The translations under genes and the position numbers were made by a program. From Opitutia bacterium (GTDB lineage: Bacteria; Verrucomicrobiota; Verrucomicrobiia; Opitutales; Opitutaceae): a DNA stretch of 39,250 nt. Shown here one piece after another: positions 34,791-38,022 of the stretch. Position 1 is the stretch's first letter, and each line of letters opens with the position of its first letter. The stretch lies in NCBI GenBank assembly GCA_003153035.1, contig PMBT01000052.1, positions 45,974 to 85,223 on the forward strand, written 5' to 3'. Below the pieces are notes generated by a model that was not told where the DNA came from, did no database searches, and saw only the letters and a list, made by a program, of their open reading frames with translations.

Positions 34791-34845
34791 TCTCTGCACC
34801 AGCCTCTTCTTCCCCCGCGCCTCTTCCCTGATCCGTGATAAACTC

Positions 34846-35583
34846 ATGCAGCCCGTGACCTCGCTTTCCGCCACCTACCTGGCAGCGGCTACTGATCTTT
34901 TGCGGCGCGCCAGCGAAACTAACCGCCCCGCCCTTCAGAAGCTGGGTCCGATTCTAGGCCGTTCTGTCGCCGCGGGCGGCATGATCCACACTTTCGGCAG
35001 CGGTCACAGCGAAATCATCGCCCGGGAAATCGTCGGCCGCGCCGGCGGCCTGGTGTGCGTGAGCAGCATTGACGATCCCACGGGCGGTTTCATTGAAACT
35101 CTTGCCGGTTACGGGACCAGGCTGGCCGAACGCTACGACCGCCGGCACGGCCTGCGGGCTGGTGAGACTGTGATTGTTGTCTCCAACGCCGGCCGCCACG
35201 CCGCACCGCTCGAAGTTGCCCACTTCGCTCAACAAAAGGGCCTGATCGTTGTCGGCCTCACCAGCGTCGCTGTGTCCCGCTCGGTTCCGGCCGTTTCCCC
35301 GGGCGGTCGGAACCTGCACGCCCTCGCCGACTACGTGCTGGATAACTGCGGTTTGCCTGGCGATGCCATTGTCGAAGTCGCCGGAGGTGTCCGCGCTGGA
35401 CCGACCTCCACGCTCGTGGGAACGCTGCTGCTCAATTTGCTTTTCCTTGAGGTGGTCGAATGGCTCACGGTCAACGGCCACTCTCCGCCTGTCTTGCGCA
35501 GCCAGAGTTTGCCCGGCGCCGTGGAGCATAACCGGGCGCTCGCGGAAAAATACGCCGGCCGCCTCAGCCGCCCACTGGCATGA
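34846..35583 (+). CDS. SIS-domain sugar isomerase/etherase-like protein (UPF0309-like)
   Basis: GGMIHTFGSGHSEIIAREIVGRAGGLVCVSSIDDP, GETVIVVSNAGRHAAPLEVAHFAQQKGLIVVGLTS, GPTSTLVGTLLLNLLFLEVVEWL. Confidence 0.88.
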   Translation: MQPVTSLSATYLAAATDLLRRASETNRPALQKLGPILGRSVAAGGMIHTFGSGHSEIIAREIVGRAGGLVCVSSIDDPTGGFIETLAGYGTRLAERYDRRHGLRAGETVIVVSNAGRHAAPLEVAHFAQQKGLIVVGLTSVAVSRSVPAVSPGGRNLHALADYVLDNCGLPGDAIVEVAGGVRAGPTSTLVGTLLLNLLFLEVVEWLTVNGHSPPVLRSQSLPGAVEHNRALAEKYAGRLSRPLA

Positions 35584-35734: not shown

Positions 35735-36649
35735 ATGAGCTTCCGCATCGGAGTCGATGGCGGTGGGACCAAGACCGAGTGCATTTTGCTCGACGGGCTC
35801 GGCGCCGTCGCGGCGCGCCATACGGCCCCGGGCTGTAATCCCAACCTGGTCGGTCCGGAACGCGCGCGGGCAGTTTTCCTCGCAGCGCTTCGGACGATGC
35901 TGGCGAACGCCGGCGTCGGAGTCTCCCCGCCCGAGATCGCGGCGACCCTGCTCTGCATGGCAGGAAACTCCTCGTTTTGGGGGGAGACTGCCACCACCAT
36001 GACCGGTTTCGGAAAGGTGACCACCGCGTCAGATTCCCTGCCCGTGCTCGAACTCGCCACCAGCGGGGCGCCCGGCCTGGTCCTCCACGCCGGCACCGGG
36101 TCGTTCGTCACGGCCCGCGCACCCGATGGGTCGGTTCATTATGCCGGCGGACTTGGCTGGCGCTTCGGCGATGCGGGCGGCGGGTACGATCTCGGCCGCC
36201 GCGGCATCGCCCGGGCGCTGCTCGAACTCCAAGGCTGGGCGGAGCGCACCGCCCTCGCCGAGGCCCTCTGCCAGCACACGGGGGCGGCGGACTACGCCGC
36301 CAATTCGCGGATCCTCTACTCCTCGGCGGACCCCGGCCCGAGCATTGTCGCGTTCGCTTCCCGTGTGGCCGACCTGGCCGGCGAGGGCTGCCGTCCGGCG
36401 CAACAAGTCATTGCCCAATCCCTTTCCGAACTCGCGGCGTTGGTGAACGCGGTGCTGCCGCGCCTGTTCCCGCTCGCCACTGCGGACGCGAGGGTTCCTT
36501 GCGGGGTGAGCGGCGCCCTCCTGAACCGTCCGCCCTGCCTTTACACGTTGCACGCCCTCGCGGCCACGCACGCCTGGCCCTTCCGGTTGCAGGCCGTCAC
36601 CGAGCCGCCGATCGAGGGCGTGCGCCGGTTGCTGCTGAAGATGAGCTGA
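35735..36649 (+). CDS. BadF/BadG/BcrA/BcrD-type ATPase / N-acetylglucosamine kinase-like
   Basis: FRIGVDGGGTKTECILLDGLGAVAARHTAPGCNPNLVG; LHAGTGSFVTARAPDGSVHYAGGLGWRFGDAGGGYDLGRRGIARALLELQG. Confidence 0.92.
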   Translation: MSFRIGVDGGGTKTECILLDGLGAVAARHTAPGCNPNLVGPERARAVFLAALRTMLANAGVGVSPPEIAATLLCMAGNSSFWGETATTMTGFGKVTTASDSLPVLELATSGAPGLVLHAGTGSFVTARAPDGSVHYAGGLGWRFGDAGGGYDLGRRGIARALLELQGWAERTALAEALCQHTGAADYAANSRILYSSADPGPSIVAFASRVADLAGEGCRPAQQVIAQSLSELAALVNAVLPRLFPLATADARVPCGVSGALLNRPPCLYTLHALAATHAWPFRLQAVTEPPIEGVRRLLLKMS

Positions 36650-36718
36650 GATCCCCGGGACTGCGTTGGCCGCGAAGTGCGGGTTTGCCTGGGCGCCGCG
36701 CATCACTACCCTCCCCTC

Positions 36719-37804
36719 ATGGCCGCCGACGCGGAGAACATCGCCCCGACACAGAAGAAGCCGAGCTACCCGGTCATCGACGAGCTCCGCTCCTACCTGC
36801 GTCGCTACCGGCGCGATCGCGATCTGCCCGTTACCTACGAACGGCTCCGCAACTTTCAGGAGACGGCGCCACTCATCGACGCCGACGGCCGCGCCACGCT
36901 CTGGGAGACCGTGGCTTATCACGCAGAGGAGATGCGCGTGCTCAATGAGGACCTCAAGCGCATCTACGCCCTCCTCAAGGTCGACGGCGACTTCTCGGTC
37001 ATGACCCACCTGTACATCGACCGCATCGACTTCTGCTCCTTCGGCAACTCCCAGCCGTTCCGCATCCGGATTGTCAACGCCTACAACGACAACCCGGACT
37101 ATTTCTACATCAAGAAGGCCGACGCCTCCCGCGTGTACGGACTGGAGCTCGAACACCTGCTCTCGCCCAACCGCCTCAGCTTTCTCACCTCCGGCCGCAT
37201 GCTGGTCGAGGAGCACATCCCCGGCATCCCCGGCGACGTTTTCACCGAGCGCTGGCTGCACCACAGCGACTTCAAACCCATCCGCGTGGCCAAGGAGCTC
37301 GTGAAGTTCAACGAGCGCTGCTTCGTCCGGCTGCTGGGCGACATGCGCGCCTACAATTTCGTTGTGATCGTCATGCCCGACTTCGAGGACGCGCAGATCC
37401 GCATCCGGGCGATGGATTTCGATCAGCAATCGTACAACGGCCGAAAGAACTTCTACCTGCCGCAGTTCTTCAAGGAGAACCGGCCGCTGGCCCTCTACTG
37501 CCTCCAGCACCTTCGCTACGAGACCTCGCTGCAATACCAGCGCGAGGAACAGACGCTCATGCTCCAGCGCAGCGAGATCGCGGCCCACCGCCTCGGCTAC
37601 CTGCTGCAGATCATGGCCCGGGACCGCATCGCGCCGGATGAGAAAGTCCATCAGCTCCGCGAGAGCCTGGCCGAGCACTTCCACTCCGATCATTACCTGC
37701 GCTGCCAGACGATGGGCGAGCTCGTGCGTGAAAACCTCGAGACCCTCCGGCGGAACATCAGCCGTCCCATCGCGCCGCCGGCCGGCCAGGAGGAACTCGC
37801 CTGA
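36719..37804 (+). CDS. Hypothetical protein with putative protein-kinase-like fold
   Basis: Start MAADAENIAPTQ. Ordered motifs YFYIKKADASR, LELEHLL, MLVEEHIPGIPGDVF, LGDMRAYNFVVIV, IRAMDFDQQSYNG resemble beta3 Lys, alphaC Glu, hinge, catalytic loop and a DFG-like DFD. Confidence 0.8.
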   Translation: MAADAENIAPTQKKPSYPVIDELRSYLRRYRRDRDLPVTYERLRNFQETAPLIDADGRATLWETVAYHAEEMRVLNEDLKRIYALLKVDGDFSVMTHLYIDRIDFCSFGNSQPFRIRIVNAYNDNPDYFYIKKADASRVYGLELEHLLSPNRLSFLTSGRMLVEEHIPGIPGDVFTERWLHHSDFKPIRVAKELVKFNERCFVRLLGDMRAYNFVVIVMPDFEDAQIRIRAMDFDQQSYNGRKNFYLPQFFKENRPLALYCLQHLRYETSLQYQREEQTLMLQRSEIAAHRLGYLLQIMARDRIAPDEKVHQLRESLAEHFHSDHYLRCQTMGELVRENLETLRRNISRPIAPPAGQEELA

Positions 37805-37878
37805 CCCGGCCCGCACCTTTCACGGTCTCGACCGTTGCTGCGATCAACTGCCTGGCTCCAGTTCACCGACCAATCTTT

Positions 37879-38022
37879 TGTCAACTAAGGCGTGTCTTCA
37901 AAATGTCATTGCGAGGGGCCGCGCTGAGCGAGGCACTGAAGTAATCCAGCTGGATCGCCGCGGCCCGCGCAGCGGGCCTCGCGATGACACGGCGTTTTGA
38001 AGACACGCCCTAATAGTTGACA
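37879..38022. repeat. Nested MITE-like palindromic element (outer TIRs plus inner family A repeat)
   Basis: Outer arms TGTCAACTAAGGCGTGTCTTCAAAA (37879-) and TTTTGAAGACACGCCCTAATAGTTGACA (ending 38022) flank GTCATTGCGAGG...ATCCAGCTGGAT...CCTCGCGATGAC (37905-37988). No ORF of plausible function inside. Confidence 0.88.

Follow-up and report, generated by a model that had tools for sequence, protein, structure and literature searches.

The locus

The gene under study (36719-37804, plus strand) was read as an open reading frame from the window, that is, the whole stretch of 39,250 nucleotides that was analysed; it starts with an ATG at 36719, runs to a stop at 37804 and encodes a protein of 361 amino acids. 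As indicated in Table 1, and as the initial annotation had noted, it lies just downstream of genes for a SIS protein and a BadF-type kinase; both are carried by the same strand. A genome search found it in single copy in its own genome. On the minus strand, an open frame of 595 codons (36029-37816) is antisense to the whole gene; long antisense shadow frames, several of which are present in this high-G+C DNA, mislead simple gene calling. A palindromic element (37885-38018) with terminal inverted repeats of 18 nucleotides (37886-37903 and 37995-38012) is found just 3' of the gene. Its folding is far better than that of shuffled sequences (z -7.0), and the genome has some 30 copies of it, partial or diverged, which identifies it as a REP/MITE-like dispersed repeat.

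Table 1. Coordinates of the gene, of its upstream neighbours and of the elements of the encoded protein.
Feature	Positions	Strand	Remarks
SIS protein	34837-35583	+	upstream of the gene
BadF-type kinase	35735-36649	+	ends 69 bp upstream of the gene
Whole gene, 361 aa plus stop	36719-37804	+	kinase-like protein without annotated family
Conserved N-terminal extension, residues 14-91	36758-36991	+	invariant K14, Y26, L27, R32, Y40, W62, L79, Y83; precedes the kinase-like core
beta1 - FGNS loop - beta2, residues 98-120	37010-37078	+	putative ATP-loop equivalent
beta3 K132, then D135, R138 (K-x2-D-x2-R)	37112-37132	+	spacing as in KHGDDLR of Vps34
alphaC-like helix, residues 136-148	37124-37162	+	invariant E143 and E145, candidates for the ion-pair Glu
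E164-E165-H166 after beta5	37208-37216	+	hinge-like position, putative hinge role
Catalytic-loop equivalent GDMRAYN, residues 207-213	37337-37357	+	D208 (PKA D166), R210 (PKA K168), N213 (PKA N171)
DFD, residues 233-235	37415-37423	+	putative metal-binding DFG equivalent, after beta8 (224-232)
Short activation-segment equivalent, residues 236-252	37424-37474	+	low model confidence
C-terminal helical part of the C-lobe, residues 255-348	37481-37762	+	AlphaFold2 model

Distribution of the family

A genome-wide scan of contigs yielded 307 relatives, and the best 80, which were kept, all belong to Opitutae or Verrucomicrobia by title. In the survey of the phylum, a clear member (E < 1e-145) was found in 82 of the 388 Verrucomicrobiota genomes, and the best match in the remaining ones had an E-value of about 0.1 or worse, which is chance level. 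As judged from these matches, the family is isolated in sequence, with clear members on one side, chance-level matches on the other and no intermediates among the 388 genomes. The gene is present in 122/184 sampled genomes of the window's order, genomes of 1.3-1.7 Mb included; several listed genomes of the order without the gene have a size of 0.8-1.1 Mb. It is also carried by four genomes (family label f34) outside the window's class. Genus g29 of family f7, whose genomes measure 2.2-3.2 Mb, lacks the gene in all those listed and the other f7 genera have it, which suggests that the gene was lost from the whole lineage, possibly in relation to lifestyle.

Identity to the query is about 65-90% in most of its taxonomic family, 48-59% in the order and 45-51% beyond; this drop with kinship fits vertical descent of the gene. 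The plasmid search gave no match to the protein, nor did the IMG/VR contigs contain a relative of it.

Invariant residues in kinase order

The initial annotation had pointed to five kinase-like motifs in the expected order, and all five are present: FYIKK (residues 129-133), LELEHLL (142-148), RMLVEEHIPGIPGDVF (160-175), LGDMRAYNFVVIV (206-218) and IRAMDFDQQ (229-237). We looked at their conservation in an alignment of 139 sequences that are 45-91% identical to the query and come from several families and orders as well as from a second class. K132, D135, R138, E143, E145, E164 and H166, as well as D208, R210, N213, D233, D235, Q236 and N254, are invariant (139/139), and G109 and E165 are each kept in 136/139. 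The lysine, glutamate, aspartate and asparagine residues and the DFD aspartates that had been proposed as kinase landmarks are all conserved in 139/139; because they had been named before any alignment was available, their invariance amounts to a fair test that the proposal passed. Two details needed refinement. The invariant lysine of FYIKK, proposed as the beta3 lysine, exists, but it is the first of the two only (K132), K133 being replaceable and varying among the 139 sequences. The residues E164, E165 and H166 of the hinge-like motif are indeed conserved, whereas the hinge role itself is suggested by their place after beta5. In a diverse alignment of 38 rows, 66 columns are invariant.

A spaced K-E-GD(x4)N-D[FWLY][GDE] pattern occurred in 0/702 unrelated neighbour proteins and in 7/5000 shuffles of the protein; this regular expression was composed after the sequence had been seen, and it catches only 8/17 true Pkinase and 1/18 APH sequences. 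With the invariance of the residues named beforehand and these counts, the quoted motifs exceed chance.

The catalytic key residues of the protein-kinase-like (PKL) superfamily are G52, K72, E91, D166, N171 and D184 (PMC1821047), and their equivalents here are G109, K132, E143 or E145, D208, N213 and D233. The further PKL key residues, P104, H158, H164 and D220, are each lost in some family; R200 and L206 stand at the spacings of H158 and H164, the histidines not being kept, and P150, like N254, is invariant, the mapping of these two onto the further key residues being uncertain. Compared with PKA, the Lys-to-Glu spacing is shorter (11 or 13) and the N-to-D spacing longer (20), and the GD(x4)N spacing is the same as that of PKA D166-N171 and of GDRH(x2)N in PI3K.

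Searches against known families

The absence of an obvious family, first noticed by eye, was borne out by the searches: Pfam-A, NCBIfam, PADLOC and the PDB sequences gave no credible match, with the single protein or with diverse alignments. PHROGs gave weak matches only, all to unnamed families (best E 8e-4, to a family matched by 2/38 members). Among the Pfam profiles considered, PF01636 (APH/choline kinase) matched no member, and no match was obtained with PF10009 (DUF2252) or with PF00069 (Pkinase), LGD and DFD standing in place of HRD and DFG. With E-values of up to 10 allowed, the PF00454 profile matched none of the members searched (sets of 25 and 38), and a class-wide search of genomes with it did not recover the gene. 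We also compared profiles with hhalign, using small control profiles built from Verrucomicrobiota loci (18 APH, 17 Pkinase and 5 DUF2252 sequences). None of the comparisons was significant, with E-values of 0.16-0.3 for APH, 0.48-0.64 for Pkinase and 0.37-0.44, over 9 columns, for DUF2252. The APH alignment alone, with its non-significant E-value, sets GDMRAYN and DFD on GDLHPRN and IDWGD. We thus rejected filing the protein under APH, Pkinase or DUF2252 on the basis of the profile comparisons, and under PI3K (PF00454) for want of a profile match. The genome that carries the gene has ten PF00069 and six PF01636 matches, the gene being additional to this rich kinase set.

Predicted structure

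An AlphaFold2 model of the full-length protein, obtained with an alignment of 79 sequences from the window and related loci, reached a pLDDT of 81.9 and a pTM of 0.80. The predicted elements are, in order, beta1 (98-106), beta2 (114-120), beta3 (126-133, with K132), a helix (136-148), beta4 (155-158) and beta5 (161-165). They are followed by helices 172-179 and 187-208, GDMRAYN (207-213), beta7 (213-221) and beta8 (224-232), and then by DFD (233-235), a low-confidence loop (236-252) and helices up to residue 348. In the model, this order of elements is that of a protein-kinase-like domain.

In a Foldseek search of the PDB run without kinase bias, all of the top 50 matches were PKL proteins. 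They are headed by PI3K/Vps34, with E-values from 1.1e-4 (2x6h) to 9e-4, followed by eukaryotic-type kinases, Rio1, an APH-like corramycin phosphotransferase, the kinase domains of lanthipeptide synthetases and WaaP; the top matches in the viral library were also mostly kinases. The kinase-like fold suggested by the initial annotation is thus supported by a predicted structure, although its TM-scores against solved kinases do not exceed 0.38, a low value, and come with large rmsd. Of the two outcomes that the initial annotation had named as refuting, a predicted structure without a bilobal kinase fold and an alignment in which the proposed residues vary, neither was observed. A model restricted to the core (residues 92-350) was poor (pLDDT 64.9, pTM 0.49) and was left out of the fold search, for which the full-length model was used. 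The poor core-only model suggests either that the fold includes the 90 conserved residues at the N-terminus or that the alignment was marginal; the N-terminal extension is apparently integral to the fold.

Proposed activity

The analysis shows the residues, their invariance, the order of secondary-structure elements in the model and the kinase identity of the fold matches; that the protein binds ATP, transfers phosphate and acts on a protein of the Ser/Thr type instead of a sugar is an inference. The gene very probably belongs to a real, conserved and unannotated family that combines a probable PKL fold with a complete set of catalytic residues. We are similarly confident that the product is a soluble cytosolic PKL-fold enzyme (no membrane segment is suggested, the maximum Kyte-Doolittle value over 19 residues being 1.3) that forms its own sequence family and is vertically inherited in single copy in many Verrucomicrobiota. 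On this reading, the protein is probably an active cytosolic kinase of a new PKL family, and the relatives probably make up a phylum-specific family of phosphate-transferring enzymes.

In such an enzyme, ATP-Mg would be bound between the two lobes, K132 would grip the alpha and beta phosphates together with E143 or E145, and N213 and D233 would be the metal ligands. The acceptor hydroxyl would be activated by D208, and the phosphate in transfer would be stabilised by R210, in the role that K168 plays in PKA. Kinases that phosphorylate proteins are reported to be marked by a basic residue at the position of PKA K168, a residue that small-molecule kinases generally lack (PMC4702295). Because the invariant R210 sits at this position, we lean toward a protein substrate, which seems more likely than a small molecule or a lipid. 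The most specific version of this reading, a kinase family ancient in Verrucomicrobiota with a PI3-kinase-like catalytic organisation (K-x2-D-x2-R, GDxR-x2-N and a short activation segment), a conserved N-terminal extension and a protein substrate in an undescribed pathway, is tentative and, taken as a whole, rather unlikely.

The family looks like a new addition to the PKL superfamily that current profile libraries do not see. That it is so widely conserved in a phylum that has been little studied argues for a real role in physiology. The catalytic residues predicted here lend themselves to direct testing, and a protein substrate is what the invariant arginine at the position of K168 leads one to expect.

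Alternative explanations

It is a distinct possibility that the same PKL fold serves a kinase of small molecules or lipids, similar to APH/choline kinases or to PI3K, instead of a protein kinase. Indeed, DFD is close to the D-[FW]-[DE] motif found in APH and choline kinases, the sole hhalign alignment on the catalytic motifs is that with APH, PI3-kinases head the Foldseek list, the activation segment is short in the model and K-x2-D-x2-R has the PI3-kinase spacing. However, neither PF01636 nor PF00454 matches any member, an arginine such as R210 is unusual for small-molecule kinases at the position of K168, and the gene neighbourhood names no consistent metabolite.

That the PKL fold is used for something other than phosphotransfer, as an AMPylase, a glutamylase or a scaffold pseudokinase in the manner of SelO or SidJ, is improbable. 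Some PKL proteins do carry out other reactions (PMC10870513) and the family described here is about as difficult to recognise from its sequence, but Lys, Glu, the catalytic Asp, Asn and the metal Asp are all kept, and a scaffold would not need them. We give as little chance to the idea that motifs and predicted topology are misleading and that there is no kinase fold: the low TM-scores, the poor core-only model and the absence of sequence links to kinase families speak for it, but the pTM of the full-length model, the kinases filling the unbiased fold search and the invariance of exactly the residues predicted beforehand are against it.

As for a link to amino-sugar metabolism, which the initial annotation had thought conceivable, the BadF gene immediately precedes the kinase-like gene in no relatives other than the four closest (L001, L002, L003 and L031). 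Of the 67 Opitutaceae loci whose upstream DNA was long enough, 19 have BadF and 11 have SIS within the called neighbourhood, and of the 29 distant loci none has either; these neighbour calls are approximate, and an antisense frame masks that of BadF even in the window. The upstream genes of other relatives, named by eye from their sequences, encode a Gfo/Idh-like oxidoreductase or are unrelated. The gene acts as a stand-alone unit and the amino-sugar link is therefore unsupported: an accessory enzyme of the upstream genes (SIS sugar isomerase and BadF-type kinase) is very improbable, despite their common direction and the 69 bp that separate BadF from the gene.

Comparison with known kinases

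PI3-kinases share with the family both K-x2-D-x2-R after beta3 and a GD-x-basic-x2-N catalytic loop. The motifs compared, IFKHGDDLRQD and ILGVGDRHLDN...HIDFG, were read from PDB chains and checked against them; this likeness was noticed after the fold matches and is suggestive only. In PI3-kinases, the activation loop is short and leads into helices that differ from those of eukaryotic protein kinases (PMC7619004); a short activation segment with helices after it is also seen in our model. In contrast, PI3-kinases have DFG where the family has DFD, the N-to-D spacing of Vps34, a class III PI3K, is shorter than the 20 found here, and 361 amino acids leave no room for the C2 domain and the helical domain that PI3-kinases possess. 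Unlike the PI3/PI4-kinases, the family is limited to Verrucomicrobiota as far as searched.

The APH/choline kinase clan (PF01636) has in common with the family the GD(x4)N loop and a D-[FW]-[DE]-like metal site, but a histidine at D+2 where the family has an arginine. With the eukaryotic-type Ser/Thr kinases (PF00069, PknB-like), the family shares the order K, E, D(x4)N and metal Asp, the basic residue at the K168 position and fold matches; it differs from them by the absence of HRD and of the DFG glycine and by its short activation segment. Orphan bacterial PKL families, such as Lani_1194 and Lcin_0519 of Legionella and the KINtaro families, were recognised only through remote homology and structure prediction (PMC9758233, PMC10870513). 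Lani_1194 and Lcin_0519 bear a methyltransferase domain and are without an identifiable alphaC Glu, whereas the family described here has neither trait.
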